Origin: Neptunicoccus sediminis
Lineage (GTDB): Bacteria > Pseudomonadota > Alphaproteobacteria > Rhodobacterales > Rhodobacteraceae
Direction of reading: 5' to 3'
Assembly: GCF_001719615.1 (NCBI RefSeq)
Contig: NZ_MDVX01000001.1
Coordinates: forward strand, 744,001-808,000
Length of the DNA: 64,000 nt
In this document: in pieces, positions 36,057-63,506 of the stretch
How the letters are laid out: every line of letters begins with the position of its first letter
How positions within the stretch are numbered: the first letter of the stretch is position 1
Translations under genes and position numbers: made by a program
Notes under the pieces: generated by a model
What the model was told of the DNA's origin: nothing
Database searches by the model: none
The model's input: only the letters and a program-made list of their open reading frames with translations

Positions 36057-36072
36057 TGCTGCAGCGCAGAAT
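36057..36072 (+). promoter_or_regulatory. phaR: PhaR operator upstream of phaP
   Basis: TGCTGCAGCGCAGAAT contains the exact CTGC-AGC-GCAG pattern at 36059-36069. Together with the inverted copy in the promoter spacer (minus TGCCGCAGCGCAGCAT, 14 of 16 positions equal) it forms a pair of inverted sites about 29 bases apart. The same 16 bases recur at 63491. Confidence 0.7.
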
Positions 36073-36079
36073 AAATCTC

Positions 36080-37858
36080 CTAAACTCCTGGTTTCAGAAC
36101 ATAACTTCCGGGTGCAGGTTCGATTGGAGGGTTGTTTTTATTGCCAGGCTTGCGGGGGGAGGTCGATTTTTGCTCCCCCTCGGACAGCCAGTCCGACCAG
36201 CGGTGCCACCATGATTCCTTTACATATGTCGCGTTTTCCAGCCAGAATTCCGGATCGCGGGGCGGCTCTGGATTGTGCCAGTGGCCGTATTTGTCCCGTG
36301 ACGCCGGATTGACGATGCCAGCGATATGGCCGCTCTCGGACAGGATAAAGGTGCGGTCGCCCCGCGTTTTGGTCAGCCCGCGGAAGGTGCTCGCCCACGG
36401 TGCGATGTGGTCCTGAATGGTAGAGACCGCGAAAATTGGCCGGTTGATCTGGGCCAGACGGATCTTTTCCCCCAGCAGTTCGAATTTGCCTTCCGCCAGT
36501 TCGTTATCCACATAAAGCTTTTGTAGATACTCCACCGCCATGCGACCGGGCAGGTTGGTGGAGTCGGCATTCCATTGCAGCAGATCAAAGGCAGGAGGCG
36601 CTTCACCCATCATGTAGGACCGCACGGCAGGGGCATAGACCAGATCCCGTGCCCGCAGGAAGCTGAAGGCGCGGGACATGAAGTAGCTTTCCAGATAGCC
36701 GGTCTCTTCCACCTGCGCTTCGATCCCTTTAAGGAAGCCCGGCTCAAGGAAGTTGCCCAGCTCTCCGGGGTTTTTGAAGTCGGTCATGGTGGTAAAGAAA
36801 GTGGCCTTGTTGATCTTGTCGTCCTCACCAATCGCGGTGAGATAGGCCATTGTACAGGCCAGCAGCGTGCCGCCGATGCAATAGCCCGCGACATTGGCAG
36901 ATTTCTGTTTGGTGATCTCCAGCACCTTGTCGAGCGCGACAAGAAGGCCCTCTTCCAGATAGGTGTCAAATCCGCAATCCGCATAGCTGGCATCCGGATT
37001 GACCCAAGACACCACGAATACTGTGTGGCCCTGATCGACGGCGTATTTGATCAGGCTGTTTTCGGGGCGCAGGTCCAGAATGTAGAATTTGTTGATCCAC
37101 GGCGGGGTGATCAGCAGCGGCTTTTTATAGACCTTATCCGTGCTCGGATTATACTGGATCAACTGGAACATCCGGTTCTGGAACACAACCGACCCCTGTG
37201 TGGTGGCAATATCCTTGCCCACAACAAAAGCGTCCGGATCCGCCAGACGCACGGCAATCCCCTGCTGGTTGCTCTCCAGATCGGCCACGAAATTCTGCAA
37301 CCCGTCCACAAGCGATTGACCATTGGTTTCCATCGCCCGCTCCAGCGCATCCGGATTGGACGCCAGAAAGTTGGTTGGCGCAAACATATCCACCACCTGT
37401 TTGGCAAAGAAATTCACCTTCTCCCGTTCCCGCTCGGGCAGGTGGGACATATCTTTGGTAATGGTTTCAATGGTCTTGGAGGACAGTAGATACTGCTGCT
37501 TGATCATTTTGAAATAGGGGTTCTTTTCCCAGTTCTCGTTCTTGAACCGCTTGTCGGTTACAGGTTCAGGGTCTGAATTTTGGGCAGTGCCCCCCAATTG
37601 TTGCTGAATTTCCGACCAGTTTTTCAAACTCTGGGTCCAGAAGCCCACCTGCGCCTCTATTATGCGGCTCGGGTCGCTCATCATTTCGGCAAAATAGGCG
37701 GCTGCGGCTTTGGCATAGAACTGGTGATCGGGGGTTTCGAGGTTCGGACTGTGACTTTTCCGTTCCGCCAGCGCAGCCATCATTCTTTTAGTTAATTCGT
37801 TAATTTTGCTTAAATTTTTCTCTAAAATCTCGGCATCGGGTGACGTTTGGTCAGTCAT
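36080..37858 (-). CDS. phaC: Class I polyhydroxyalkanoate synthase
   Basis: Polymerises hydroxyacyl-CoA into PHA on the granule surface. The 592-residue protein has the lipase-like box GYCIGG with nucleophile C327, the general-base pair D483 (QDHIAPW) and H511 (SGHIAGIVNP), and W-rich tail (KESWWHRWSDWL). Length and the single subunit mark class I. The ATG at 37858 (MTDQTS) follows AATGGAGG; upstream extension is less likely. It is divergent from the depolymerase, so synthesis and degradation share one regulatory spacer. Confidence 0.96.
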   Translation of the reverse strand: MTDQTSPDAEILEKNLSKINELTKRMMAALAERKSHSPNLETPDHQFYAKAAAAYFAEMMSDPSRIIEAQVGFWTQSLKNWSEIQQQLGGTAQNSDPEPVTDKRFKNENWEKNPYFKMIKQQYLLSSKTIETITKDMSHLPEREREKVNFFAKQVVDMFAPTNFLASNPDALERAMETNGQSLVDGLQNFVADLESNQQGIAVRLADPDAFVVGKDIATTQGSVVFQNRMFQLIQYNPSTDKVYKKPLLITPPWINKFYILDLRPENSLIKYAVDQGHTVFVVSWVNPDASYADCGFDTYLEEGLLVALDKVLEITKQKSANVAGYCIGGTLLACTMAYLTAIGEDDKINKATFFTTMTDFKNPGELGNFLEPGFLKGIEAQVEETGYLESYFMSRAFSFLRARDLVYAPAVRSYMMGEAPPAFDLLQWNADSTNLPGRMAVEYLQKLYVDNELAEGKFELLGEKIRLAQINRPIFAVSTIQDHIAPWASTFRGLTKTRGDRTFILSESGHIAGIVNPASRDKYGHWHNPEPPRDPEFWLENATYVKESWWHRWSDWLSEGEQKSTSPRKPGNKNNPPIEPAPGSYVLKPGV

Positions 37859-37946
37859 AATTAAACCTCCATTAATGAGGATTGCACTAGTATTCACCTA
37901 TCACTTTACGCAACATGCGGTCAAAGAGACAACAAAAGGTTCTACT

Positions 37947-39266
37947 GTGACCATTTATGATATGAGCGAAAGCATCCGCCAGACCAATGTCTGGGTCGGT
38001 GCGACAACGAAAGCCTTCTGGCAAAACCCTGCCTTTGCCGTGACCATGAGCCCGCTACCGGCGCTCTTCTCCGCTTGGGGTGAGGTCACGGAACGCAGTT
38101 TTGAAAAAGTAGCGACAAAACCCTCTTGGGGGATCGACAGCGTTGTGTCCGCGGATTCCGATTATCCGGTGACCAAACAGATCGAACTGGAGCTGCCCTT
38201 TTGCAACCTGATCCATTTCACCGCCGAACGGGACCGTCCGGTTCGCCGCCGCGTTCTGCTGGTGGCGCCCATGTCGGGGCATTACGCAACCCTGTGCCGC
38301 AAGACTGTGGCAAGCCTGCTGCCCAACTGTGATGTCTACGTAACAGAGTGGAAAAACGCGCGGGATGTGCCCCTGTCTGCGGGCAAATTCGATGTCGAGG
38401 ATTACACCAAATATGTGGTGAAAATGCTGCGGCATCTGGGCGAGAATATCCACGTGATCGCCGTGTGCCAGCCTGTCCCTCTGGCGCTGGTGGCCACAGC
38501 CATGCTCGCCGCCGATGAAACCGCGCCGCAGCCGCGCACCCTGACGCTGATCGGTGGTCCGGTGGATCCGGATGCCAACCCGACCGAAGTGACGGATTTC
38601 GGCAACCGCGTCACAATGGGCCAGTTGGAACACAGCGTCATCACCCCTGTCGGCTTTGCCTTTGCCGGTGTCGGGCGCAAGGTCTATCCGGGTGCGGTTC
38701 AGCTGTCGTCGTTCATTGCGATGAACGCACAAACCCACGCCAAAGCCTTTGCCGACCAGATCGGTGCTGTGGCCCGTGGCGAAGCAGCGGATCTCGACCG
38801 TCACAACAAATTCTATGATGAGTATCTGGCCGTGATGGACATGCCTGCGGAGTTTTATCTCTCCACTGTGGACCGTGTCTTCAAACGCCGTGAAGTAGCG
38901 CGTAACGTGTTCAAAGTGGACGGCAAGCGGGTGGACATCAGCAAGATCACCAAAACCGCTGTCAAAATTGTCGAAGGCGGGCGGGACGATATTTCGGCGC
39001 CGGGCCAATGTCTCGCGGCGCTGGATCTGCTGCCTGATCTGCCCGAAGATATGCAGGAAACCTTTCTGGCACCGGATGCCGGTCATTATGGCATCTTCAG
39101 CGGAAGCGCATGGCGCAATGACATCCGCCCTGCTGTGCTGAACTTCATCGACAAACACAACGATGCACCGGAGACGTCGAAAAACGCCTCCGCCACCGGC
39201 AAGGCTGCAAAGGTTGTGGACAAACTGGCGCGAACTGACGCCGCGACAAAAGCGAAGAAGGCTTAA
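37947..39266 (+). CDS. phaZ: Intracellular polyhydroxyalkanoate depolymerase
   Basis: PhaZ-type depolymerase of 439 residues that mobilises intracellular PHB. The nucleophile motif is VCQP (Cys in HVIAVCQPVPLAL), as in PhaZ of Cupriavidus; C-terminal DAGHYGIFSG carries the catalytic His. A Lys/Ala-rich tail of about 45 residues follows. GTG at 37947 has AAAAGG seven bases before it; ATG 37962 is an alternative start. The spacer to divergent phaC is 88 bases. Confidence 0.88.
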   Translation: MTIYDMSESIRQTNVWVGATTKAFWQNPAFAVTMSPLPALFSAWGEVTERSFEKVATKPSWGIDSVVSADSDYPVTKQIELELPFCNLIHFTAERDRPVRRRVLLVAPMSGHYATLCRKTVASLLPNCDVYVTEWKNARDVPLSAGKFDVEDYTKYVVKMLRHLGENIHVIAVCQPVPLALVATAMLAADETAPQPRTLTLIGGPVDPDANPTEVTDFGNRVTMGQLEHSVITPVGFAFAGVGRKVYPGAVQLSSFIAMNAQTHAKAFADQIGAVARGEAADLDRHNKFYDEYLAVMDMPAEFYLSTVDRVFKRREVARNVFKVDGKRVDISKITKTAVKIVEGGRDDISAPGQCLAALDLLPDLPEDMQETFLAPDAGHYGIFSGSAWRNDIRPAVLNFIDKHNDAPETSKNASATGKAAKVVDKLARTDAATKAKKA

Positions 39267-39318
39267 CAGGCCTTCTTCCAGCGTGCAGGGTAAGGCATCC
39301 ACAGGAGGAGCCTTACCC

Positions 39319-40392
39319 ATGCCCGCAGTCACCCGTGTCCTGACCGACCAGAAAACCATTACCCGACAAAAGCTGGACCAAAGCGCAGCCGCAACGCTCG
39401 ACGACGGGCAGGTGCGTCTGGCGATTGAGAGTTTTGCGCTGACCGCCAATAACGTGACCTATGCAGCGACAGGGTTTGACATCGGCTACTGGAAGTTCTT
39501 TCCGGTGGAAGAGGACGGGCAGGGGCTGGTTCCGGTCTGGGGCTTTGCCCGCGTGGTCGAGAGCCGATCGGAGGCACTGGAGGTTGGTGCGCGGTTGTAC
39601 GGGTTTTACCCGATGGCCTCTGAACTGGTGATAACACCTGTTGCCCACGGACGCAGCGCAGTGCGGGACACGGCGCCCCATCGGGACGGTCTGCCGGAGG
39701 TTTACAACCTCTATTCCCGCGTTGGTCCCGCCGCATCCTCTGATCCCTATCAGGCACTGATGCAGCCGCTGATTGCCACCTCTTACCTGCTGTTTGACTG
39801 GCTGTCGGATAACGAATGGTTCGGCGCACAGCAAATCATCATCGGCTCTGCGTCCTCGAAAACGGGCCTCGGGCTTTGCGCCTTTCTGTCGGAACAGGTT
39901 GGCCGGCCATACCAAGTCGTCGGACTGACCGGCGACAAGAATGCGGAATTTGTCAGGGAACTGGGGTTTTGTGACCAAGTGCTGACCTATGGAGACGTCG
40001 GCCAACTGGATCGGGTGGAATCTGTCTATGTGGATATGGCGGGCAACGCGACGGTCAAACAGGCACTGCATGCGCGGCTCGACGGTGTGTTGAAACATTC
40101 CAGCGCTGTCGGGCTGAGCCATTGGGACCAATTCGCAAAATCCGAAGGGTTGGCCGGACCCAAACCGCAATTCTTCTTTGCTCCCGCCCAGATCGCCAAG
40201 CGCAAGGCGGATTGGGGGAAAGGTGTGATTGAGGGCAAGATTACAGAGGTCACCGCGCAAATCGTGGCAGATGCAGCGCGGTGGCTGACGCTGGAGACCC
40301 ACGATGGTCTGGAGGCTGCCTTGCAGCCTTTTACCGATCTGGCCGAAGGACGGGCCGATCCAAAGACAGGGCATATTGTGCGGCTCAGTTAG
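39319..40392 (+). CDS. DUF2855 family protein
   Basis: Protein of 357 residues of the DUF2855 family: FALTANNVTYAATGFDIGYWKFFP near the N-terminus, then a Rossmann-like half (IIIGSASSKTGLGLCAFLS.Q and VVGLTGDKNAEFVRELGF). It looks like a degenerate medium-chain reductase. It is 52 bases behind phaZ with its own strong GGAGGAG, so could be read with it; a role in PHA or crotonyl-type metabolism is only suggested by position. Confidence 0.82.
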   Translation: MPAVTRVLTDQKTITRQKLDQSAAATLDDGQVRLAIESFALTANNVTYAATGFDIGYWKFFPVEEDGQGLVPVWGFARVVESRSEALEVGARLYGFYPMASELVITPVAHGRSAVRDTAPHRDGLPEVYNLYSRVGPAASSDPYQALMQPLIATSYLLFDWLSDNEWFGAQQIIIGSASSKTGLGLCAFLSEQVGRPYQVVGLTGDKNAEFVRELGFCDQVLTYGDVGQLDRVESVYVDMAGNATVKQALHARLDGVLKHSSAVGLSHWDQFAKSEGLAGPKPQFFFAPAQIAKRKADWGKGVIEGKITEVTAQIVADAARWLTLETHDGLEAALQPFTDLAEGRADPKTGHIVRLS

Positions 40393-40443
40393 GATTGCCT
40401 GCGGCGCGGATATTTTCGGAAAATGGAGGCGGGATTATGCCGG

Positions 40444-42867
40444 TCAGCCCCGCATTCTAAGCATTTCGGGGTCGAACAATTGGGTCGTGATCCGTTTCGC
40501 GGGGCGCATCTGGCCAAGGATTTCGATTTCCACCTGAAGGTCGTCTGTGATCCGGTTGCTCGGCACAAAACCGAAAGCGATGGATTTCTGCGCGTGGTGG
40601 GAATAGCCGCCCGACGTGCAAAAGCCGATAACCTCGCCGTTGAACCAGATAGGCTCATAGGCGTTTACGTCTGCATCCCGTGCGTCCACTTCAAAGGTGC
40701 AGAGTTTGCGGGCGGGACCGTTTTCCCGCTCCGCCAGTGCTGCTTGTTTTCCGATGAAATCTGCCGGTTTGTCATAGCTGACAAACCGGTCCATGCCGGT
40801 TTCCGCAGGGGTGTAGTCCGGCGAAAATTCTGCGTTCCACGAGCCGAAAAAGCGGTCCAGTCGCAGCGACATCATCGCCCGCATCCCAAAGGGCTTCAGC
40901 CCGAGGTCTGCGCCAGCGGTTGCCAGTGTTTGGTAAAGCGCGCGCTGGTTCTCTGCGTCCACATAAATTTCATACCCGAGGTCTCCGGTATAGCTGACCC
41001 TTTGCACCAGCGCATCGCAGAGGCCAACGGAGAGGTGTTTTGCATGCATAAAACGGAACGCCGTGTTCGAGACATCCGCGCGGGTGCAACGGGTCAGCAG
41101 GTCCCGCGCGTTCGGACCGGCAATTTGAAAACCGATCCGTTGTGTAGAGACGTTTTCGACCTGCACATCGCCCGACAGGTTCCGGAGGAACCAGCGCATA
41201 TGGATCGCTTGCATCCCGAAGCTTGCCGTCAGTTGAAAGCGGGTTTCCGACAGGCAGGTTACGGTAAAATCCCCCAGCAGTTTGCCCTTGGGTGACAGCA
41301 TCGGCGTCAGTGCGATACGGCCCTGTTTCGGGATGCTCCCTGCCATGATCCGGTCAAGCCAACTGCGGGCATCCCTGCCGGAGACGATGTATTTGCCGAA
41401 GTTATGGATTTCGTTGATGCCGACAGCCTCGCGCACGGCTTTTACCTCTGCGGCTGTGGCGTCCCATGCGTTGGAGCGGCGAAAGCTCGGGGTTTCAACA
41501 CGCGGTTCGCCTTCGCGCGCGAAGTAATTGACGACTTCCATTCCGTATTGTGCCCCGAAAACGGCATTTTGCTGATCCCAGATGCCATAGGCCGGCGTGG
41601 TCTGGAACGGCCGCCCCGCGGGGAGTTCTTCGTTCGGGTAGGACACGGAAAAGCGTTTTTGGTAGTTTTCAACCACTTTGGGCCGTGTGTATCCCGGTGT
41701 GATCCAGTCCCCAAAGCGGGCCACATCCATCGCATAGACGTCTCTTTCGGTTTCACCCTCCACCATCCATTGCGCCAGCATCAACCCGACGCCACCGCCT
41801 TGGGAAAACCCTGCCATGACACCGCAGGCGGACCAGTAGTTGCGCAGTCCGGCGATCGGTCCGACCAGCGGATTGCCATCAGGGGCAAAGGTGAAAGGGC
41901 CGTGGATCACCGATTTGACACCTGCGGTTTCCAGCGCCGGAAAGCGCCTGTAGGCAAAGGCGATGCTGTCTTCGATCTTGTCGAAATCGTCTGGCAGCAG
42001 TTCATGGCCAAAGTCCCAGGATGTACCGTCCACGGCCCAGGGGCGGCAGGGTTGTTCGTAAAAGCCAATACACAGGCCACGGCCTTCCTGCCGCAGATAG
42101 CTTTCGCCGGAGGGGTCCATCACATGGGGGTGTTCCCCGCCGCTGTCGATTATGTCCGAGATCATCGGGATGGCATCGGTCACAAGATACTGGTGTTCCA
42201 TCGGGTGCAGCGGCAGATAGACCCCTGCCATCGCGCCCACTTCCCGCGCCCAGAGACCGGCGGCATTGACGATATGTTCCGCGTGGATCGTGCCTTTGTC
42301 CGTCACCACATCCCATGTGCCATCCGCCCGCTGGTTTGTTTCGCGCACCATGCAGTGGGTCTCAACCGTTGCGCCGCCCATGCGTGCCGCTTTGGCGTAG
42401 GCGTGGGTGGTGCCAGAGGGATCGAGATGCCCGTCGAGCGGATCGTAGAGCCCGCCGATCACGCCTTTGGTATTGGTCACAGGGGCAATGCGGGCGATTT
42501 CGTCCGGTGTGACGATTTCCGTCTCCAGCCCCATGTAGCGGTGCTTTGCCCGCTCTGCGAGCAGCATGTCCATCCGCTCCGGCGTGTCGGCCAGTGTCAC
42601 GCCGCCCACATGGTGCAGCCCGCAGGACATGCCGGTGAGCGCCTCCAGTTCCTTGTAGAGCCGGATGGTATAGCCTTGCAGCGCCGCCATATTGGTATCG
42701 CCATTCAGCGTGTGAAACCCGCCTGCCGCGTGCCACGTAGAACCGGATGTCAGTTCCGAACGTTCCACCAGCAGCACATCGGACCAGCCGAGTTTGGTGA
42801 GGTGGTAGAGCACCGAGCAGCCGACAACGCCGCCGCCGATGACACAGACCCGAGTGGTGGTTTTCAT
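40444..42867 (-). CDS. FAD-dependent oxidoreductase fused to GcvT-like domain (dimethylglycine/sarcosine dehydrogenase type)
   Basis: Two-domain enzyme of 807 residues. The N-terminal half is a DAO-type flavoprotein (VCVIGGGVVGCSVLYHL, then SGSTWHAAGGFH, the latter near the covalent-FAD His seen in DMGDH). The C-terminal half (from about 430) is a GcvT/aminomethyltransferase-like folate domain (IAGPNARDLL, YTGDLGYEIYV, LRLD). Known members oxidise dimethylglycine, sarcosine or related N-methyl amines and pass the methyl to tetrahydrofolate. It follows an ABC importer operon on the same strand. Confidence 0.88.
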   Translation of the reverse strand: MKTTTRVCVIGGGVVGCSVLYHLTKLGWSDVLLVERSELTSGSTWHAAGGFHTLNGDTNMAALQGYTIRLYKELEALTGMSCGLHHVGGVTLADTPERMDMLLAERAKHRYMGLETEIVTPDEIARIAPVTNTKGVIGGLYDPLDGHLDPSGTTHAYAKAARMGGATVETHCMVRETNQRADGTWDVVTDKGTIHAEHIVNAAGLWAREVGAMAGVYLPLHPMEHQYLVTDAIPMISDIIDSGGEHPHVMDPSGESYLRQEGRGLCIGFYEQPCRPWAVDGTSWDFGHELLPDDFDKIEDSIAFAYRRFPALETAGVKSVIHGPFTFAPDGNPLVGPIAGLRNYWSACGVMAGFSQGGGVGLMLAQWMVEGETERDVYAMDVARFGDWITPGYTRPKVVENYQKRFSVSYPNEELPAGRPFQTTPAYGIWDQQNAVFGAQYGMEVVNYFAREGEPRVETPSFRRSNAWDATAAEVKAVREAVGINEIHNFGKYIVSGRDARSWLDRIMAGSIPKQGRIALTPMLSPKGKLLGDFTVTCLSETRFQLTASFGMQAIHMRWFLRNLSGDVQVENVSTQRIGFQIAGPNARDLLTRCTRADVSNTAFRFMHAKHLSVGLCDALVQRVSYTGDLGYEIYVDAENQRALYQTLATAGADLGLKPFGMRAMMSLRLDRFFGSWNAEFSPDYTPAETGMDRFVSYDKPADFIGKQAALAERENGPARKLCTFEVDARDADVNAYEPIWFNGEVIGFCTSGGYSHHAQKSIAFGFVPSNRITDDLQVEIEILGQMRPAKRITTQLFDPEMLRMRG

Positions 42868-42910
42868 GGTGAAACTCCCGCGTGGTGGACGGGATCAGGC
42901 TGGACGGGTT

Positions 42911-42939
42911 TGTCGCAATTGGCAAACCGGTTTGCGACA
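42911..42939. promoter_or_regulatory. Nested palindrome upstream of the dehydrogenase gene
   Basis: GCAAACCGGTTTGC (42922-42935) is a perfect 14-base palindrome, flanked by TGTCGCAA (42911-42918) and TTGCGACA (42932-42939), another inverted pair; TGTCGCGA follows. The CCGG-centred core resembles LacI-family operators. No LacI gene is nearby. It lies about 45-70 bases before the gene start. Confidence 0.45.
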
Positions 42940-42965
42940 GGTTTTGTCGCGAACTCCGGTGGAAT

Positions 42966-42992
42966 GCCAGAGGGCTTGAACAGCCCTCTGGC
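42966..42992 (-). terminator. Hairpin after livM
   Basis: GCCAGAGGGCT (42966-42976) and AGCCCTCTGGC (42982-42992) form a perfect 11-base stem with loop TGAAC just after the livM stop. No T-run follows, so it may stabilise the 3' end or act as an incomplete terminator. Confidence 0.5.
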
Positions 42993-43007
42993 GGCAGGGC
43001 GTGCCTG

Positions 43008-44393
43008 CTATTTTTCCGGGATCAACCCGCGCGGGCTGAACCGCAGGACCAGAAGCAGGATAAGCCCCATGGTCATCAGGCGCATGTGCGCTGTGGAGTT
43101 TAGCAGATGGATGCGCAGGGCGTTATCCTCTGCCATGCCCGATGTGATGGTCTGCATCAGCCATGTTCCGATCGGCTCTGCCTGAATCCAGAAGAACCAG
43201 ACCACAAAGCCCCCCAGAACCGCGCCCCAGTTGTTACCGGAACCGCCAAGGATCACCATGACCCAGATCAGGAAGGTAAAGCGCAGCGGCTGGTAGGCGC
43301 CGGGTGTAAGCTGCCCGTCGAGCGTGGTCAGCATCGCTCCGGCAATGCCCACAACGATAGAGCCGAGCACGAAGACCTGAAGGTGGCGGGCCACAACATC
43401 CTTGCCCATCGCATTGGCCGAGACTTCGTTGTCACGGATCGCACGCATCATCCGCCCCCAAGGGGAGTTCAGCGCCCGTTCTGACAGCCACAGCACAATC
43501 AGCAGTACCACGGTAAACAGGATCGCATAGCAGAGTTTGACAAAGACCGATGACGACAATGCGGGATCCTGCCCCAGTCGGGTCGCCAGATCCACGAACC
43601 ATTGGGACTGTTGCAGGTCGATTTCATAAGGCACGGGCCGTGGCAGGCCGGAAACGTTTTTGACGCCCCGGGTCAGCCAGTCTTCGTGCTTGATGATCGC
43701 CACGATGATTTCGGCAATACCCAGCGTCGCAATCGCCAGATAGTCCGAGCGCAGGCCAAGGGCGGTCTTGCCGATCAGCCATGCGGCCAGTCCTGCAAAG
43801 ACGCCGCCAACCGGCCATGCCAGAATAATCGGCAGCCCCAGCCCGCCGAGATAGCCTTCGGAGGCGGGGTTCACGTCTTCGATGGCGTCTCTGGCCGGGC
43901 CGTAGAAGTAGCGGATCACGATCAATCCGATCACGATAATGGCAAACAGCGTCAGGCCACGGGCCATAGAGGGTGCCATATTGCGGTAAGCGTAGATCGC
44001 CGCCATGACCGTGACCACGGCAAGGATAAACGACACGAAAATCCCCAAGGCTCCGGCGGCCCAGGCATCGGCAACAGGATCGGCAGAGATCAGAACCGCA
44101 GCAACGCCGCCAAGGGCGGCAAACCCCATGATCCCTACGTTGAGAAGGCCCGCATAGCCCCACTGGATATTCACCCCGAGCGCCATGATCGAAGAGATCA
44201 AGCAAAGGTTCAGTAGCGCCAGCGCGACGTTCCAGCTTTGGATCATGCCGACAATGATGATCAACAGCGCCATGATCGCAAACAGCGATACATTCCTGAT
44301 CCGGTCCGGCAGCGGTGCCAGCCCCACCAGACGGGGGGCCAGTGACACCACCAGCAGCGCAAAACAGGCGAGTCCGAGAAGTGTTACAATCAT
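43008..44393 (-). CDS. livM: Branched-chain-type ABC transporter permease LivM
   Basis: Inner-membrane permease of 461 residues, larger than usual LivM (about 320-420), with many hydrophobic helices. The LivM signature is visible in INIQWGYAGLLNVGIMGFAALGGVAAVL and RSDYLAIATLGIAEI (EAA-like region), later GLAGAMLTTLDGQLTPGAY (read GIAGAML). A central extra loop includes DVNPASEGYLGGLG. It pairs with LivH, whose stop overlaps its start by ATGA. Substrate is likely amino-acid-like. Confidence 0.88.
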   Translation of the reverse strand: MIVTLLGLACFALLVVSLAPRLVGLAPLPDRIRNVSLFAIMALLIIIVGMIQSWNVALALLNLCLISSIMALGVNIQWGYAGLLNVGIMGFAALGGVAAVLISADPVADAWAAGALGIFVSFILAVVTVMAAIYAYRNMAPSMARGLTLFAIIVIGLIVIRYFYGPARDAIEDVNPASEGYLGGLGLPIILAWPVGGVFAGLAAWLIGKTALGLRSDYLAIATLGIAEIIVAIIKHEDWLTRGVKNVSGLPRPVPYEIDLQQSQWFVDLATRLGQDPALSSSVFVKLCYAILFTVVLLIVLWLSERALNSPWGRMMRAIRDNEVSANAMGKDVVARHLQVFVLGSIVVGIAGAMLTTLDGQLTPGAYQPLRFTFLIWVMVILGGSGNNWGAVLGGFVVWFFWIQAEPIGTWLMQTITSGMAEDNALRIHLLNSTAHMRLMTMGLILLLVLRFSPRGLIPEK

Positions 44394-54018: not shown

Positions 54019-54020
54019 CC

Positions 54021-55198: not shown

Positions 55199-55211
55199 TC
55201 CGCCCACCCCG

Positions 55212-55814: not shown

Positions 55815-55848
55815 AGGCGTCACCAATAGGTTTAACAAAAGGCTTTCC

Positions 55849-56013
55849 ATGATTGAGTTTCTGACACCCGGCCAGTTGGTGCGCAATCCCGAGCATCCTG
55901 AATGGGGGCTGGGGCAGGTTCAATCTGTTATAGACGGCAAAATAACCGTCAATTTCGAAGAGGTCGGCAAAGTGGTAATCAATGGCGACCATGTGGCCCT
56001 GGAGCCAGTGTAG
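55849..56013 (+). CDS. DUF3553 small protein
   Basis: Protein of 54 residues with the DUF3553 pattern: FLTPGQLVRNPEHPEWGLGQVQSV and NFEEVGKVVINGD (a short SH3-like fold also found at the end of UvrD/PcrA-type helicases). Stand-alone copies are common next to chpT in Rhodobacterales. Starts at ATG 55849, between the chpT leader and olsB. Function unknown. Confidence 0.8.
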   Translation: MIEFLTPGQLVRNPEHPEWGLGQVQSVIDGKITVNFEEVGKVVINGDHVALEPV

Positions 56014-56140
56014 CTGGCGTGCTGTGGAATGAGTATGCTACTTTCAGTTGAGTTTTCAAGTTTTTTTCCTGACGTGCGGTTTGTCTGCAAAAATACGCCG
56101 ATTGGGTTAATAATTTCCTAATTGGCAGGGGAGGTCCCAG

Positions 56141-56917
56141 ATGATCGTGAATACATCACATTTCACCCTGAAGCTGGCAGAGAGCGAACAAGAGCTCGCC
56201 GCCGCCCAGCGCCTGCGGTATCGCGTTTTTGTCCAGGAAATGGGCGCCCGTCCCGCCTTTGACGGAGAGGCTGCGAACCGCGAGTCCGATGCTTTTGATC
56301 CCTATTTCGATCATCTCCTTTTAATGGACACGCGGATTCCGGACACTGACAATAACGTCGTTGGGGCCTATCGCATGATGCGCAGTGAAACTGCCGCAAA
56401 GGCGCAGGGATTTTACGGTGCGCAGGAATATGATTTGGGTCCGATCATCCGGTCGGGACGCTCTGCTGTGGAACTCGGGCGCAGCTGTATTGATCCGGCC
56501 TATCGCAACGGCATTGCGCTGCATCTTTTGTGGCAGGGGGTGGCGGAATATGTGTTGCGCAACCGGATTGAACTGCTGTTCGGCGTGGCTTCGTTTGCCG
56601 GAACCGATCCGACGGCTTATGCCGACGGTCTGTCCTACCTGCACCACGGCCATCTCGCCCCGCCGCAGCTGCGGGTGGTCGCGCGGCAAAGCGCCCGTGT
56701 CCGAATGGACATGAAGCAAGCCGATGCGATTGACCGCGTAACTGCGGTGCGTCAGATCCCCGCGCTGATCAAAAGCTATATCCGGCTTGGGGGCTGGGTC
56801 GGAGAAGGGGCCTATGTGGATCGGGATTTCAACACGATTGATGTGTGTCTCGTGCTCGACCAGCAGAATATTCCTGCCAAACAGAGGGCGCAACTGTTGC
56901 AGGGGCTGGCGGCATGA
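56141..56917 (+). CDS. olsB: Ornithine lipid synthase subunit OlsB (N-acyltransferase)
   Basis: GNAT-related acyltransferase of 258 residues that makes lyso-ornithine lipid from ornithine and acyl-ACP. Family features: LAESEQELAAAQRLRYRVFVQEMGA, FDPYFDHLLLMD, VGAYRMMR and VELGRSCIDPAYRNG (cut here). Its stop overlaps olsA by ATGA, giving the conserved olsBA pair, which supplies phosphorus-free lipids in roseobacters. Confidence 0.92.
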   Translation: MIVNTSHFTLKLAESEQELAAAQRLRYRVFVQEMGARPAFDGEAANRESDAFDPYFDHLLLMDTRIPDTDNNVVGAYRMMRSETAAKAQGFYGAQEYDLGPIIRSGRSAVELGRSCIDPAYRNGIALHLLWQGVAEYVLRNRIELLFGVASFAGTDPTAYADGLSYLHHGHLAPPQLRVVARQSARVRMDMKQADAIDRVTAVRQIPALIKSYIRLGGWVGEGAYVDRDFNTIDVCLVLDQQNIPAKQRAQLLQGLAA

Positions 56918-57717
56918 CCACTTGGGATGACGGCAGTCGCGCCGTGGTCAAGCCATTCGGCGTTATGGGCTGGCTGCGCTGTTGCCTGCGTGTGGCGGCG
57001 ATGGCGGTGATTATTTTCGGTCTGATGGGGCCAATGGTTATGCTGCGGATTTCAGGATTCACCGCGGCGGCACAATGGGTTGTCGGGCTGGCCTGTCGCG
57101 GTGTGTTGCGGGTGATCGGCCTACCTGTGATCCTTACAGGCACCCCTATGCCCTATGGTGGCGCGGTGGTGGCAAACCATTGTTCGTGGCTGGATATTTT
57201 CACGCTGAACGCAGTGCAAAAGGTGTTGTTTGTAGCCAAAGCCGAGGTGCAGCACTGGCCGCTGATCGGCCTGATCGCCCGCTCGGTGGGCACGATCTTT
57301 ATTGAGCGGCGTACCAGTCATGCCGCCCGCCACCGCGCCCTTGTGCTGGACTATATCGCGCGGGGGCATCGGTTGTTGTTCTTTCCCGAAGGCACCAGCA
57401 CGGACGGGCAGCGGGTGCTGCCGTTCCGCTCTACCTTGTTTGCGGCCTTTATGGAGCCTGATGTGCGAGAGCGACTTTGGGTGCAGCCGGTTACACTGAA
57501 TTACATCGCGCCCGCGGGAGAAGATCCGCGGTTCTACGGCTGGTGGGGGGATACGGCCTTTGCGCAGGACCTGTTCCGCGTGTTGGCCCAAGGGCGGCAG
57601 GGGCGGGTCGAGGTGGTATTTCACCCGCCGGTTCAGGCCGCCACTGTGGCATGTCGCAAGGATATGGCGCGGCTCTGTGAGGCCGCCGTGCGCAGTGGGC
57701 TACACAATCCGCTCTAG
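56914..57717 (+). CDS. olsA: 1-acyl-glycerol-3-phosphate/lyso-ornithine lipid acyltransferase OlsA
   Basis: Acyltransferase of 267 residues with one N-terminal membrane anchor (about 25-50). Motifs: NHCSWLDIF (NHx4D), ERRTSHAARH and FPEGTSTDG. It completes ornithine lipid made by OlsB and may also serve phospholipid synthesis. The ATG at 56914 is set by the ATGA overlap with olsB. Its 3' end overlaps the convergent ThiE-like gene by 18 bases. Confidence 0.9.
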   Translation: MTTWDDGSRAVVKPFGVMGWLRCCLRVAAMAVIIFGLMGPMVMLRISGFTAAAQWVVGLACRGVLRVIGLPVILTGTPMPYGGAVVANHCSWLDIFTLNAVQKVLFVAKAEVQHWPLIGLIARSVGTIFIERRTSHAARHRALVLDYIARGHRLLFFPEGTSTDGQRVLPFRSTLFAAFMEPDVRERLWVQPVTLNYIAPAGEDPRFYGWWGDTAFAQDLFRVLAQGRQGRVEVVFHPPVQAATVACRKDMARLCEAAVRSGLHNPL

Positions 57718-58323
57718 ATAGGCTTTCAGCGCGGCGTCCGGCCCGTCCTTTGCAGACCAGAGTTCCGGACCAAAGGCAAAGAAATCTGTGACAGGGGCCA
57801 GTTTCGCAGCCATCTCAAGGGTAATCGCGCCTTCGGCAACCACCGGAAGCTCGATCATTTCGGACCACCATTCAAAGGTGTCAAAATCCACTGGATCGGA
57901 CACAGACAGCGGGTTTTCCGCCAGCGGACCAAAGGAAATGTAGTCGGCACCGGCCTCGCCCGCGGCCATGCCGGTATGACGGGAGTTTTCACAAAAGCTG
58001 CCGACAATCGCATCGTCGCCCAGAAGTTTGCGCATGTCGCGCACCTGTCGCGGCCCGTCCGTCAGATGAACCCCGTCCAACCCGTGAACCGCCGCGATCT
58101 TGCCGTGGTTTTCCACCACCAGTGGCACATCGCGGGCATGGCAGACTTCGCGCAGGTTATCAGCCGCGCGGCCAATATCCTCTGCCGCTTCGGAAGCACA
58201 GCGCAAGCGCACGCAGGCCACCTCAAAATTGTCGAGCATCCGGCTCAGCTCTGCCGAGAAGGCGGAAAGCTCGAACTGCGGGGGGGTGATAAGGTAAATC
58301 TGGGGATGTTCTGGATCGGCCAT
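57700..58323 (-). CDS. ThiE-like protein with degenerate active site
   Basis: TIM-barrel protein of 207 residues of the thiamine-phosphate synthase family. The expected QLREK is RLRCA (lost Gln and Lys), the HIND/NDR region is VVENH, the late phosphate-binding GPxFxTxTK is GPLAENP without the Lys. DGVHLTDG and GADYISFGP keep the fold. It is probably not an active ThiE; role unknown. Its gene overlaps olsA at the 3' ends. Confidence 0.75.
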   Translation of the reverse strand: MADPEHPQIYLITPPQFELSAFSAELSRMLDNFEVACVRLRCASEAAEDIGRAADNLREVCHARDVPLVVENHGKIAAVHGLDGVHLTDGPRQVRDMRKLLGDDAIVGSFCENSRHTGMAAGEAGADYISFGPLAENPLSVSDPVDFDTFEWWSEMIELPVVAEGAITLEMAAKLAPVTDFFAFGPELWSAKDGPDAALKAYLERIV

Positions 58324-58475
58324 GACTGCACCTTTGGACTTGTGACGGGTGTCTTATCGCCTGCGTAGCCTGTCGTCCAGCAATTTAGCAAGAGCCGCAG
58401 CGCCCAAGCACGGTTCCGAGACCAAAATGGCACATTTCCAGCGCCGGATTACCGAAGGAGCAGACCGCGCCCCAT

Positions 58476-58505
58476 AAAAAACCGGACGCACGCGCCCGGT
58501 TTTTT
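58476..58505 (-). terminator. Terminator of the enolase gene
   Basis: AAAAAACCGG (58476-58485) and CCGGTTTTTT (58496-58505) with loop ACGCACGCGC; both strands read a T-run after the stem. It is the only feature seen in the 200 bases between eno and the ThiE-like gene. Confidence 0.85.
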
Positions 58506-58525
58506 GTGTTTGCAAAGGGGGAGGC

Positions 58526-59818
<1,293 letters not shown>

Positions 59819-59848
59819 TCAGTTCGTTCGGTTAACAGGGCATGTGGC

Positions 59849-60775
59849 TTATGCCGCTACGGTTTGGGGAGGGATGGCGCGGGCCAGTCTGCGTTCGCGC
59901 AGCCAGACATAAAGTCCGGCCGCTACAATCACAGCGGCGCCAAACAGGGTTTGCAGGGTCAACACCTCGTCAAAAACGATGACAGAGAGGGTGAAGGCAA
60001 AGATGATGCGGGAATAGCGGAAGGGGGCCACGGCGGAAATATCCCCGATGCGCATGGCTGAGGTGATCGCGAAATACCCGATCCCCGAAAACACGATCAG
60101 TCCGCAAATATAGCCCGCAGTCAGCAGGTCCGGAATCTGCCACGGCGCACCGAACAGGGACAGGATCACACCGGCGATTGCCACCGTGAAGAATCCCCAT
60201 GTGGAGGCTTGCAGGTTGGGTACGTCCTTTGGGATGAACCGCGTGGACAGATCCCGCCCCGCAAGGCCGAACACGCCGATAATCGCCAGCAGGGAGCCGG
60301 TGGAAAACAGGGCGGGATGGGCCTCGGTTGTTTCTGCAAAAGGGTTGAGAATAATAAGAACGCCGCTCATCCCTACAAAAATCGCGCTCCAGCGCCGCCA
60401 GCTTACAGATTCCCGCAGGAACAGTGCCGCGCCAAGCGTGACCAGCAGCGGGGTGACTTGCAGGATCGAAGAGGCGGTTGAGAACGGCAGGATGGTCAGC
60501 GCCATCAAGAAACCGCAAGCGGCGACGATTTCTGCAACGCCGCGGCTGAGGATCGCAGGGTGCAAAATACGCCGCGACAGAACCGGTGTACCGCTGGCTT
60601 TGGTCAAAAGCCCGAACAGCACCGTGCCGCCAATCCCCATAAAAAACATCACTTCGGACGGGGGCAGCGTCAGCGCGGCCAGTTTGACAAACATATCCGT
60701 CGCGGCGAAGGCCGCCATTGACAGGATCATCATCATGATCGCGCGCAACGTGTCGCTTTGTGGGGCGAATATCAC
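59849..60775 (-). CDS. EamA/DMT-family transporter
   Basis: Ten-helix transporter of 308 residues with two EamA repeats (FAATDMFVKLAALTLPPSEVMFF and GDISAVAPFRYSRIIFAFTLSVIVFDE). The start is GTG at 60775, which overlaps the fur-like gene's stop as GTGA; this suggests the exporter is translated with, and possibly controlled by, the metal regulator. Confidence 0.85.
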   Translation of the reverse strand: MIFAPQSDTLRAIMMMILSMAAFAATDMFVKLAALTLPPSEVMFFMGIGGTVLFGLLTKASGTPVLSRRILHPAILSRGVAEIVAACGFLMALTILPFSTASSILQVTPLLVTLGAALFLRESVSWRRWSAIFVGMSGVLIILNPFAETTEAHPALFSTGSLLAIIGVFGLAGRDLSTRFIPKDVPNLQASTWGFFTVAIAGVILSLFGAPWQIPDLLTAGYICGLIVFSGIGYFAITSAMRIGDISAVAPFRYSRIIFAFTLSVIVFDEVLTLQTLFGAAVIVAAGLYVWLRERRLARAIPPQTVAA

Positions 60776-61206
60776 TTCTTCGACCGTTCTTTCCCAGTAT
60801 CGCGGGGGACGCCGTAAAGTTCCATTTTATGACCGCGCAAATCATAGCCGAGCTTGGCGGCGATGCGTTCCTGCAATGCCTCGATTTCGGGATCGACAAA
60901 TTCGATAACCTCGCCGGAGTGCAGGTCGATCAGGTGGTCGTGGTGGTCGCGCTCTGCGTCTTCATAGCGGGCGCGGCCATCGCCAAATTCCAACCGCTCC
61001 AGAATGCCCGATTCCTCAAACAGTTTCACGGTGCGGTAAACGGTTGCGATGGAAATTCCGCCGTCCACCTCGGAGGCGCGGGCGTAGAGTTCTTCCACAT
61101 CGGGATGGTCTTCGCTGTTCTGCAAGACACGGGCAATCACACGGCGCTGCTCCGTCATGCGCAGGCCCGCAGCCTCGCATCGCTCTATGATTGTGGGTGG
61201 TGTCAT
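60772..61206 (-). CDS. Fur-family metalloregulator (Fur/Mur-like)
   Basis: Regulator of 144 residues: winged HTH (GLRMTEQRRVIARVL ... ATVYRTVKLFEESG) and a dimer domain with HHDHLIDLHSGEVIEFVD. The usual Fur CxxC zinc pairs are absent, as in alphaproteobacterial Mur, which responds to Mn2+/Fe2+. HHDHL is like Fur rather than the Irr HHHF type. ATG 61206 chosen; an upstream in-frame ATG exists at 61245. Confidence 0.88.
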   Translation of the reverse strand: MTPPTIIERCEAAGLRMTEQRRVIARVLQNSEDHPDVEELYARASEVDGGISIATVYRTVKLFEESGILERLEFGDGRARYEDAERDHHDHLIDLHSGEVIEFVDPEIEALQERIAAKLGYDLRGHKMELYGVPRDTGKERSKK

Positions 61207-61327
61207 GGCCGAGTCCCTCTTGTTGTGAGGGGTTTTAGCGGCCATGGCGTTTGGTGCAACCCTGTTAACGTTCGCAGTGCTTCAAAAACATGGCGTAGCA
61301 GGCCGGTTTACCCAGCGGTTTAGCGGC

Positions 61328-62578
61328 TTACAGAAGTTCCGGCGTGCGGCCCAGTCGACGGGCCAGCGGTGCGATGGTCAGGCCCTGAATGATAATGCTG
61401 AACAACACCACCATATAGGTCATCGACAGCAGCAGCGGCTTCCATTCTGTGTCCGGCAGGGTCAGCACAAGCGCAACAGAGATACCACCTTTCAGACCGC
61501 CCCATGTCATGATCGGAATCACATCGCGGGGGAAGGTCTTGAACGGTTTGAGCATCAGAACCGGCACCGCGACCGCCACCAGCCGCGCCGTCAGTGCCAC
61601 GCCGATGGCAAACAGTCCGGCCCAAAGCGCACTGACGTTAAAGGCCACGGCAAAGACTTCTACGCCGATCAGCAGGAACAGGATGGCGTTCAGGATTTCG
61701 TCGATCAACGACCAGAAGGCATCAAGATATTTGCGGGTTTCATCGCTCATCCCGTATTTCACGCCCACATCCCCGATGAACAGACCGGCGACCACCGCGA
61801 AAATCGGGCCGGACAGGTGGAAATAGGTTGCCAGTTGATACCCCCCGAAGGCCAGCCCGAGCGAGAGCAGAACCTCCAGCGGGTAGTCGTCGATCCGCCG
61901 CATCACCGCGAAGGTCAGATAACCGAGGATACCGCCAAGGGCCGCACCGCCAAAGGCTTCCTGTCCGAACAGCATGAATGCGCCGGCAAATGTTGTTGCG
62001 TGGCTGTCCTGACCGCTTGGAAAGGCGAGCCCGACAAGGATCAGAAACACCACATAGGCCACGCCATCGTTGAACAGGCTTTCCCCTGCGATTTTGGTTT
62101 CCAGTTCCTTGCGCAGGTTGGCCGCGCGCAGCACGCCCAGAACCGCAACCGGATCGGTCGGGGAAATCAACGCGCCGAACACCAGCGCAATCATCAAAGG
62201 AACACCAAGGACAAGGGTCACAGCCCCCCCGACAATCGCCGTGGACAGACCAACGCCAATGGTCGCCATCAGCACAACCACCCACGCCTGCTGTCTCAGA
62301 TCACCGATTTTCACATGCAGCGCACCGGCAAAAAGCAGCAGGCCCAGCATCCCTTCAAGCAGCGCGGAGGAAAACTCCAGATCAATCACGAAACTGCGCA
62401 CCGTGTCGCGAATTTCCAGAACGGGATAGATCGCATCAACCCCCATAATCGCCAGAGACGCCAACAACGCTATGATCATGATGCCAATGGCCGAGGGTAA
62501 TCTGAAAAACAGGTAGTTGATCGCGCCGAACACCCCTGCAAGGACGATCAGCAACGATGCAATCTGAAGTTCGTTCAT
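61328..62578 (-). CDS. Na+/H+ antiporter, CPA1/NhaP type
   Basis: Cation:proton antiporter of 416 residues, about 12 helices. The CPA1 motifs are GALISPTDPVAVLGVLR and ESLFNDGVAYVVF (paired acidic residues for Na+/H+ exchange). AGGAAGAG precedes the ATG, and the start overlaps an upstream CxxC-CxxC frame by ATGA, which may couple translation. Confidence 0.92.
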   Translation of the reverse strand: MNELQIASLLIVLAGVFGAINYLFFRLPSAIGIMIIALLASLAIMGVDAIYPVLEIRDTVRSFVIDLEFSSALLEGMLGLLLFAGALHVKIGDLRQQAWVVVLMATIGVGLSTAIVGGAVTLVLGVPLMIALVFGALISPTDPVAVLGVLRAANLRKELETKIAGESLFNDGVAYVVFLILVGLAFPSGQDSHATTFAGAFMLFGQEAFGGAALGGILGYLTFAVMRRIDDYPLEVLLSLGLAFGGYQLATYFHLSGPIFAVVAGLFIGDVGVKYGMSDETRKYLDAFWSLIDEILNAILFLLIGVEVFAVAFNVSALWAGLFAIGVALTARLVAVAVPVLMLKPFKTFPRDVIPIMTWGGLKGGISVALVLTLPDTEWKPLLLSMTYMVVLFSIIIQGLTIAPLARRLGRTPELL

Positions 62579-62823
62579 GGGGGCTCTTCCTGTTGTTTAT
62601 CCCACTGCATGTAGCATTCGGGGCAACCGGACGGAAGATAATTACGCACGCTGTGAAAACACGTGCGACAGGGTTCTGGTTCGGGGAGGGATGAAACCGG
62701 CCCCTCCGGGAGGAGGAGGAGGGACCGGCATCTGTACCATGCGGGATCTGGGAGGAACGACCGCGCGGTATTCTGGTGTATTATGATGCCGGTCCCACCG
62801 GGAGGAGGTGGCGGGACCGGCAT
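62575..62823 (-). CDS. Possible zinc-ribbon peptide joined to the last sRNA unit
   Basis: The last 33 codons read EPCRTCFHSVRNYLPSG then CPECYMQWDKQQEEPP (split), with two CxxC pairs 11 residues apart, a zinc-ribbon pattern. The stop overlaps the antiporter ATG as ATGA, normally a sign of real coding. Upstream the frame runs through the sRNA hairpins, giving an unlikely Pro-rich N-terminus from an ATG inside unit 2 (62823); no better ATG/GTG/TTG exists that keeps both CxxC pairs. It may be a remnant whose start was replaced, or a coupled leader. Confidence 0.35.
   Translation of the reverse strand: MPVPPPPPGGTGIIIHQNTARSFLPDPAWYRCRSLLLLPEGPVSSLPEPEPCRTCFHSVRNYLPSGCPECYMQWDKQQEEPP
62642..62668 (-). 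terminator. Hairpin downstream of the sRNA units
   Basis: CGCACG and CGTGCG arms flank a CTGTGAAAACA-type loop after the third unit; the minus strand then reads TAATTATC. It could end the sRNA operon, but falls inside the zinc-ribbon frame. Confidence 0.3.
62697..62763 (-). ncRNA. CcsR-like sRNA unit 3
   Basis: The last transcribed of three tandem units. On the minus strand it begins with GGTCGTTCCTCCCAGATCC, a short hairpin exposing CCTCCC, followed after about 14 bases by the long hairpin (62697-62728) with arms CCGGTCCCTCC / GGAGGGGCCGG and CCTCCTCC in the loop. CCTCC is identical to the 16S anti-Shine-Dalgarno core, so such loops could pair with GGAGG in mRNAs. Layout and motif match R. 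sphaeroides CcsR RNAs. Confidence 0.72.
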
Positions 62824-62855
62824 CTATACCTAACGGGATCTGGGAGGAACGACCG
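62788..62855 (-). ncRNA. CcsR-like sRNA unit 2
   Basis: Same organisation as its neighbours. The long hairpin (62788-62821) has perfect arms GCCGGTCCC / GGGACCGGC extended by an inner ACC/GGT, with CCTCCTCCC in the loop. The conserved TCTGGGAGGAACGACC (plus strand) lies at 62838-62853. The changes between units keep stem pairing (for example CCCACC against GGTGG here, CCCTCC against GGAGG in the others), which supports an RNA function. Confidence 0.72.
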
Positions 62856-62879
62856 CCGGGTAATCTGGTGTGTTTGTTT

Positions 62880-62948
62880 GCCGGCCCCTCCGGGAGGAGG
62901 ATAGAGGGACCGGCGTGTTTACGAAACGGGATCTGGGAGGAACGACCG
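62880..62948 (-). ncRNA. CcsR-like sRNA unit 1
   Basis: First unit after the DUF1127 genes. Short conserved element at about 62928-62948 and long hairpin at 62880-62914 (GCCGGTCCCTC / GAGGGGCCGGC with CCTCCTCCC in the loop). The conserved elements of the three units are 92 and 93 bases apart. In R. sphaeroides the homologous sRNAs are cut from a joint transcript with the DUF1127 mRNA. Confidence 0.72.
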
Positions 62949-62953
62949 TTTTG

Positions 62954-62981
62954 TAAAAGGCGCTTGAAAGGACAGGCGCCT
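62954..62981 (-). terminator. Hairpin between second DUF1127 gene and sRNA units
   Basis: AGGCGC (62958-62963) and GCGCCT (62976-62981); the minus strand then reads TTTTAC. It could be a leaky terminator or a processing site separating mRNA from sRNAs. Confidence 0.5.
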
Positions 62982-62988
62982 ATCCGAA

Positions 62989-63237
62989 TTATTGATCCTG
63001 AACGACCAGCGTGCGTGCGTAGGCCGGAATGTCAGCGCGTTTCACGCCAATCTGGTGCAATTGCTCGTTGCTCATGCCTTGCAGGGCAGAGATCATCCGT
63101 GCGGTTTGCAGGCGCAGCAGGGACGCGGATGCCCGTGCTGAAACGCCGGACCAACCCGCAGCGAATGCTTCGGCAGAGCGTTTCTTGAAGGCTGCGAAGC
63201 CGGATTCAGAGATGTTGTCGTATGTTACAGTTTTCAT
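62989..63237 (-). CDS. Second DUF1127-like small protein
   Basis: Protein of 82 residues. The C-terminal part (LQGMSNEQLHQIGVKRADIPAYARTLV) is DUF1127-like; the N-terminal half is Ala/Ser-rich. It starts four bases after the first DUF1127 gene and precedes the sRNA units. R. sphaeroides has one DUF1127 gene here; a second is unusual. Possible RNA-binding, by analogy. Confidence 0.8.
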   Translation of the reverse strand: MKTVTYDNISESGFAAFKKRSAEAFAAGWSGVSARASASLLRLQTARMISALQGMSNEQLHQIGVKRADIPAYARTLVVQDQ

Positions 63238-63241
63238 TGTC

Positions 63242-63472
63242 TTAAGCCATTTCTGCCGCTTCACGAGCGACCCGTCTGATGTCACCACGGGAAAACCCGA
63301 GGTCTGCGAGATCGCGGGCAGAGAGGCCTGCAAGCTCGGCAAATGTGTTTGTGTACGCCTTGCGTTTGCGGCGATATGTGCTCCAGCTTTCGGCGGTGTT
63401 CTTGAGCGCCGATGCGAACTTGTTCTTAAGGTCGCCGAGTGCTGTGCCATTATGTGTGCTAGAGATCGACAT
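63242..63472 (-). CDS. DUF1127 small protein (CcaF1-like)
   Basis: Protein of 76 residues. WSTYRRKRKAYTNTFAELAGLSARDLADLGFSRGDIRRVAREAA (split in two here: basic RRKRKAY part, then the DUF1127 helix pair) is typical. In R. sphaeroides the equivalent CcaF1 binds RNA and helps mature the CcsR sRNAs encoded downstream. AAGGA lies before the ATG. Upstream is a heat-shock-like promoter and a candidate PhaR operator. Confidence 0.88.
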   Translation of the reverse strand: MSISSTHNGTALGDLKNKFASALKNTAESWSTYRRKRKAYTNTFAELAGLSARDLADLGFSRGDIRRVAREAAEMA

Positions 63473-63490
63473 TTCGACTTTCCTTCATTT

Positions 63491-63506
63491 TGCTGCAGCG
63501 CAGAAT
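63491..63506 (+). promoter_or_regulatory. Candidate PhaR operator upstream of DUF1127-sRNA operon
   Basis: TGCTGCAGCGCAGAAT is identical over 16 bases to the phaP-upstream site at 36057. It contains CTGC-AGC-GCAG. A related copy, TGCTGCAATGCAACAA, begins at 63511 (12 of 16 positions equal). Both lie between the predicted transcription start and the DUF1127 ribosome-binding site, where a bound repressor would block transcription. Confidence 0.65.

Follow-up and report, generated by a model that had tools for sequence, protein, structure and literature searches.

Tandem PhaR-type palindromes precede a DUF1127–small RNA operon in Neptunicoccus sediminis

Genes and candidate operators in the window

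We analysed 64,000 nucleotides of the Neptunicoccus sediminis genome (contig NZ_MDVX01000001.1, positions 744,001 to 808,000; the window), which carry a pha locus for polyhydroxybutyrate (PHB) and an operon of two DUF1127-type genes followed by small RNAs (sRNAs) with anti-Shine-Dalgarno (anti-SD) loops. Two palindromes in front of this operon resemble operators of the PHB-responsive repressor PhaR. The operon and its upstream region contain the following features.

62685..62988, minus strand: anti-SD sRNA array of three units of about 92 nt, with CCUCCUCCC in the hairpin loops
62892-62900, 62800-62808 and 62708-62716, minus strand: the CCUCCUCCC loops, one per sRNA unit
62989..63237, minus strand: DUF1127-like protein 2 (82 aa), PF06568 at 19.1 bits, under the cut-off of 23.3
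63242..63472, minus strand: DUF1127 protein 1 (76 aa), PF06568 at 41.5 bits, cut-off 23.3
63491..63506, plus strand: candidate PhaR-type operator 2 (proximal), TGCTGCAGCGCAGAAT, 18 nt before the DUF1127 ATG
63510..63526, plus strand: candidate PhaR-type operator 1 (distal), TTGCTGCAATGCAACAA, 20 bp from operator 2
63525..63551, minus strand: promoter predicted by eye, with -35 TTGAAA at 63546-63551 and -10 CATATT at 63525-63530

The layout is of the CIN1/CcsR type, a DUF1127 gene and then hairpin sRNAs with CCUCCUCCC. DUF1127-like protein 2 shared 44% identity over 62 aa with the second open reading frame (ORF) of a locus with tandem operators from a different genus. The hairpins of the array had z values of -3.2, -5.5 and -2.9. 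In Rfam, the array scored 45.2 bits (E 2.7e-6) for ar14 (RF02344) and 23.2 bits for CcsR1 (RF02791), below the gathering thresholds of 58.8 and 65.3, respectively. The array RNAs are ar14/CcsR-like and, by the rule of Rfam, not family members.

CTGC-N3/4-GCAG is the PhaR pattern of Rhodobacter. Both palindromes of the operon are of the CTGC-RNY-GCAG type, and each is an exact match to the PhaR consensus TGCRNYGCASMA on one strand or both. The consensus was deduced from Bradyrhizobium footprints (PMC6201568). The operators follow immediately on the predicted -10 and begin at about the predicted +1, and a bound protein would cover the transcription start.

The pha locus lies about 27 kb away in the same window and contains the following features.

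34829..35398, minus strand: phaR, PHB-responsive repressor, PF07879 at 91 bits, PF05233 at 45 bits, TIGR01848 at 143 bits (cut-off 109)
35538..35963, minus strand: putative phaP (phasin), a 141-aa ORF between phaC and phaR, named by position and size
36027..36042, minus strand: second, weaker candidate operator at phaP, an inverted copy with 2 mismatches
36057..36072, plus strand: candidate PhaR-type operator at phaP, the 16-mer TGCTGCAGCGCAGAAT, by sequence match
36080..37858, minus strand: phaC, polyhydroxyalkanoate (PHA) synthase, PhaC_N at 243 bits
37962..39266, plus strand: phaZ, PHB depolymerase, TIGR01849 at 516 bits, with a start chosen by us

The 16-mer sits between phaC and the putative phaP, and phaZ is divergent, beyond phaC. 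The putative phaP ORF had no match in Pfam or NCBIfam. One PF07879 match was found in the genome of the window (G000), which thus encodes PhaR. We also considered anti-SD pairing of the sRNAs to the pha mRNAs. The ribosome-binding site of phaC contains GGAGG and that of phaP only AGGA; such pairing is generic, and it was dropped as a claim.

Shared 16-mer and genome-wide matches

The preliminary description of this DNA reported an identical 16-mer at phaP and at the DUF1127 gene, each with a related second copy nearby. An exact match of TGCTGCAGCGCAGAAT at 36057-36072 and 63491-63506, both on the plus strand, bore this out, and the second copies are the inverted one at 36027-36042 and TTGCTGCAATGCAACAA at 63510-63526. 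The genome-wide search that it proposed found CTGC-N3-GCAG 142 times, compared with 60 for the reversed pattern, and the 16-mer itself twice in 3.86 Mb. The consensus TGCRNYGCASMA was likewise enriched, with 91 strand-hits against 14 for the reversed-pattern control. The 12-bp core TGCAGCGCAGAA occurred at three places among the TGCRNYGCASMA matches in the genome, the third of which (C67:196277) is divergent outside the core.

Sharing one 16-mer is weak evidence, since at equal base use 0.95 pairs of shared 16-mers are expected by chance per 64 kb. The excess over chance lies in the placement and the tandem arrangement of the sites. Among the listed TGCRNYGCASMA matches, two separate consensus sites at most 50 bp apart were found only at the DUF1127 operon and at a standalone sRNA on another contig.

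Some other candidate sites of a PhaR regulon, seemingly intergenic, were seen at C65:9789 (L093), C59:2843 (L083) and C2:23815 (L019), next to genes for pyruvate carboxylase, a methylmalonyl-CoA mutase-like protein/acyltransferase and acyl-CoA dehydrogenase, respectively. The pyruvate carboxylase gene pyc is a named PhaR target in Sinorhizobium meliloti (PMC12542648).

Conservation in congeners and a second sRNA

A 45-nt block containing both palindromes is identical in three congeneric species (the window, G305 and G295), while the flanks drift. The TTG and CATATT of the predicted promoter are kept in the congeners. Downstream, CCTCCTCCC is present in three copies in the window and in three and six copies in G305 and G295, respectively. 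Upstream of the promoter, at 63557-63578, the minus strand carries TGCATACCCCCTTTGCGCAGAG, which is identical in both congeners.

The same operator pair, again with 20-bp spacing, was found at C59:135335/135355 of the window's genome, before the standalone CCTCCTCCC sRNA (G000:C59:135330-135500, equal to L076:1330-1500). This sRNA has two CCUCCUCCC hairpins (z -4.9), scored 43.4 bits for ar14, which is below gathering, and adjoins a divergent LysR gene.

The neighbour across the operators is an EamA gene in the window and also in G305. On the other side, the sRNA array lies directly upstream of a same-strand Na+/H+ antiporter gene (61328-62578). No T-run terminator is obvious in 62578-62690, and transcription may read through into this gene. 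Judged from its first residues, the antiporter gene follows the sRNAs in both congeners as well.

A tandem promoter class in the family

Tandem PhaR-type sites were searched for in 388 genomes of the family, independently of the DUF1127 survey below and with a reversed-pattern control. Sixteen places were found in 14 genomes; the control was found in 2 genomes. Ten of the 16 start 15-25 nt before a DUF1127 ORF, all ten with PF06568 over the cut-off, and one is the standalone sRNA of G000. Of the other five, L365 is at a short-chain dehydrogenase gene, L374 is at an E1-dehydrogenase gene, and three have no clear assignment. The pair of the window, whose distal site begins with TTGC, stands outside these 16, and 4 of the 10 DUF1127 loci were already in the survey. 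Seven of the ten have CCTCCTCCC at 590-690 nt downstream.

The phaP zones of relatives provide the comparison from the PHB side. Of 70 loci, 51 contained CTGC-N3-GCAG; the centre was RNY in 87 of 88 sites, and the palindromes were mostly 26-30 bp apart. Judged by its sequence, the window belongs to a second promoter class with tandem RNY-centred palindromes, which it shares with the standalone sRNA and with DUF1127 loci of other genera.

Promoters of other DUF1127-CcsR loci

The DUF1127 survey covered 120 genomes, with matches in 97, and 110 loci were scored, some weaker or overlapping matches being left out. Comparison samples were 70 of 116 phaR loci (the phaP zones), 29 phaZ loci and 20 element matches. 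The mismatch test used 63 other loci with at least two CCTCCTCCC, five tandem-type loci and the 70 phaP zones. In Brucella, VtlR activates DUF1127 genes and AbcR2 through the motif CAATGCAGCCATGCA (PMC12595884), and LsrB activates NfeR1 via TGCA-N6-GCAT (PMC10746234).

The VtlR motif was present within two mismatches in 50 of the 63 other DUF1127-CcsR loci (reversed control 0/63), and the exact PhaR consensus in 4 of them. In the phaP zones, the two were found in 1 and 51 of 70, respectively. The five tandem-type loci, including the window, all matched the PhaR consensus exactly, a result that is partly circular since they were picked for RNY-centred sites, and they were 3-5 mismatches from the VtlR motif (5 in the window). 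TGCR-N6-GCAT occurred 104 times in 64 DUF1127 promoters with at least two CCTCCTCCC and not at all in the 70 phaP zones. In 39 of the 64, two such boxes lie 37-41 bp apart, and we infer that they form the two halves of a LysR activator site, with an RpoH-like promoter downstream. An RNY centre was seen in 7 of 51 DUF1127 sites that have the LysR-type second box, compared with 14 of 15 that lack it. The second box TTGTGCANNYGCAGCA had no copy in G000. Because the VtlR motif fits 50 of 63 promoters and the exact PhaR consensus 4 of 63, most DUF1127-CcsR promoters examined are best explained as VtlR/LsrB-type. The LsrB motif at NfeR1 is in accord with this reading. The comparison with other Rhodobacterales promoters proposed in the preliminary description therefore mostly failed. 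Within one mismatch, the PhaR consensus was met in 47 of these 63 promoters (reversed control 9/63), and weak PhaR binding there is possible on this count.

PhaR control of CcsR loci across the whole family was considered and abandoned. PhaR-like sites at first seemed to be present in 49 of 64 loci with at least two CCTCCTCCC each (reversed control 9/64). The recurrent palindrome is CTGCATRGCAG, its centre is mostly ATR, and 44 of the 51 sites with a second box are not RNY. In 14 of 64 loci the second box occurs without a CTGC-N3-GCAG palindrome, and a better fit is given by the published VtlR motif. Caution is advised with the CTGCATRGCAG palindromes seen at many DUF1127-CcsR loci, which are explained better as LysR-type look-alikes than as PhaR sites.

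Several side observations concern these boxes. The VtlR/LsrB-type double box (CTGCATRGCRGCATTG and ATTGTGCANNYGCAGCA) is widespread upstream of DUF1127 (L047-L075, L171-L250), and in single genomes TTGTGCANNYGCAGCA also precedes a glyceraldehyde-3-phosphate dehydrogenase gene (L341) or a LacI-type gene (L336). About 9 of 29 phaZ promoters have YGCANNYGCAGCA (N4) sites and others N3 sites, and PHB depolymerase may receive a VtlR-type input. The N4 sites were not used as proof that N4 is a PhaR site, as they also fit TGCA-N6-GCAT. The copy number of CCTCCTCCC behind DUF1127 varies widely, reaching 17 within 1 kb at L240 and 26 over 2 kb at L345.

Genomes without phaR

Eight genomes at least 90% complete have no phaR, and in three of them (G003, G150 and G393) DUF1127-CCTCCTCCC loci are retained but lack the family element. 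The element is present in 60 of the 63 other loci, and the contrast with the three phaR-less loci gave Fisher p 0.0004, for lineages that are perhaps not independent. One of the 63 loci (L203) comes from G098, which is 84% complete and in which phaR was not found. We did not use the phaR-less genomes as proof for PhaR, since VtlR-like boxes with 3-4 mismatches persist in two of these three. In the complete phaR-less genomes G003, G136 and G410, the TTGTGCANNYGCAGCA matches, judged by eye, seemingly lie in coding sequence and have no CCTCCTCCC nearby. At loci L352, L353 and L354 of three nearly complete phaR-less genomes, the upstream boxes are lost or degraded while DUF1127-CCTCCTCCC is retained.

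Weighing of the explanations

The consensus match, the tandem sites at the predicted start, the conservation in congeners, the operator pair at the C59 sRNA and the RNY palindromes of the phaP zones together suggest that PhaR uses the tandem palindromes at 63491-63526 as operators. We consider it probable that PhaR represses the DUF1127-DUF1127-sRNA operon and that titration of PhaR by PHB releases it. Some observations speak against this. The tandem class is rare (14 of 388 genomes), 3 of its 10 DUF1127 loci lack CCTCCTCCC in the stretch examined, and the phaC-phaZ spacer of the window has no TGCRNYGCASMA consensus site. To these are added the VtlR-type box at most other DUF1127-CcsR loci examined and the points on which the other explanations draw.

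One of these assigns the sites to a LysR regulator of the VtlR/LsrB type and makes the resemblance to PhaR sites superficial. Such regulators are known to activate DUF1127 genes as well as anti-SD sRNAs in Rhizobiales (PMC12595884, PMC10746234), and they account for most family promoters examined, by the motif counts and the 104 TGCR-N6-GCAT boxes given above. We regard this as unlikely for the window, where the motif is five mismatches away (with the partly circular selection of the tandem-type loci noted above), TTGTGCANNYGCAGCA is missing from the genome and the sites lie at the predicted transcription start. The preference of sites lacking a second box for the RNY centre also argues against it. 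About equally improbable is that a divergent LysR-like regulator encoded at the tandem loci of other genera binds the sites and that PhaR is uninvolved. A divergent LysR-like gene was seen by eye at each of the 11 tandem-type DUF1127/sRNA loci, and the sites may belong to it; LysR domains were confirmed for L076, L366 and L363, and the L076 and L366 proteins are 48% identical. In the window and in G305, however, the neighbour is an EamA gene and the operators are nonetheless unchanged, and the same type of palindrome is found in phaP zones.

The region 5' of DUF1127 also folds well as an RNA hairpin (z -5.6), the tandem palindromes can pair with one another, and in most loci this extends to two of the three central positions. 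Conservation of the block as a hairpin of the 5' untranslated region rather than as DNA operators nevertheless seems very unlikely to us, since full pairing of the centres occurs in only 1 of 11 tandem loci and does not occur in the window, both palindromes keep RNY, and the same palindromes occur in phaP zones, mostly at the wider spacing of 26-30 bp. The least credible explanation is chance, by which such sites would arise anywhere in the genome. About one 16-mer pair is expected per window, about seven separate repeated 16-mers were found in it (sRNA repeats counted in), and CTGC-N3-GCAG is not enriched there (3 against 2.0 expected). Chance accounts poorly for the tandem recurrence at DUF1127/sRNA starts (10 + 1 of 16 places) and for the full conservation of the block in the congeners.

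Proposed mechanism

When PHB is absent, free PhaR would repress the DUF1127-DUF1127-sRNA operon by sitting at its transcription start, as at phaP. Once PHB granules form, PhaR would be titrated, and phasin would be released together with the DUF1127 proteins and the CCUCCUCCC sRNAs; joint release of phaP and the operon on PHB accumulation is expected by analogy with PhaR of S. meliloti. The anti-SD loops of the released sRNAs would then block the ribosome-binding sites of target mRNAs, and the DUF1127 protein may aid sRNA processing, like CcaF1. If this is true, a sensor of stored carbon governs an sRNA/DUF1127 module that has until now been connected with stress sigma factors and LysR activators, and the effect of PHB storage on translation becomes a testable question.

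The preliminary description placed PhaR at the DUF1127-sRNA operon. The sequence supports predicted operators here, but the idea does not extend to CcsR loci generally. As exact PhaR sites were found in 4 of 63 other loci and the VtlR box in 50 of 63, PhaR control looks like lineage-specific wiring rather than a general property of DUF1127-CcsR loci. More tentatively, and with the balance somewhat against it, the DUF1127/anti-SD-sRNA module may have been rewired from VtlR/LsrB to PhaR repression in several Rhodobacteraceae lineages, which would make PhaR control of anti-SD sRNAs a recurrent principle. Storage granules would in that case switch on a broad translation brake and its RNA-processing partner along with phasin.

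Comparison with known systems

The preliminary description knew of no report that links PhaR to a stress sRNA operon. PhaR repression of an anti-SD sRNA has a precedent in S. meliloti, where PhaR (AniA) represses mmgR (PMC12542648). Because this repression is already published, the window locus would be a variant of established PhaR-sRNA control. Our literature search, which left most subscription papers outside, found no paper linking PhaR to CcsR, CcsR1, CcaF1 or DUF1127; among the papers searched, PhaR and DUF1127 occur together as whole words only in PMC9230146, and none of the R. sphaeroides CcsR/CcaF1 papers listed mentions PhaR.

PhaR of S. meliloti acts near the promoters to repress phasins, phaZ and mmgR; it is a PHB-binding protein, and PHB titrates it (PMC12542648). 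As in the window, a PhaR-type operator lies near the start of an anti-SD sRNA, 13 nt from the start site of mmgR (Table 3, PMC12542648), and both share a YGCR-N-YGCR core. Binding of PhaR to mmgR was shown by gel shift. MmgR is an alpha-r8 sRNA for which one operator is given (PMC12542648), while the window, from Rhodobacteraceae, has tandem operators, an ar14/CcsR-like array and DUF1127 genes.

The window also resembles CcaF1-CcsR1-4 (CIN1) of R. sphaeroides, where a DUF1127 gene and then a CcsR array form one transcript (PMC10253847). There, CcsR RNAs are reported to modulate C1 metabolism and, per a title cited in that paper, the pyruvate dehydrogenase complex, and CcaF1 helps CcsR maturation. 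CIN1 is described with an RpoHI/RpoHII promoter, and PhaR is not mentioned in the text of PMC10253847; in the window, the DUF1127-like genes are two in number and the operators are tandem and PhaR-type. The VtlR/LsrB regulators of Rhizobiales (PMC12595884, PMC10746234) act on the same kind of target, DUF1127 genes and AbcR/NfeR1 anti-SD sRNAs, but their activator box has another centre and place, and the window locus is not a match to it. The PhaR-phaP phasin circuit (PMC6201568) uses the same operator type, which is found at phaP in the same genome; its target is a granule protein, whereas the predicted target in the window is an RNA operon.

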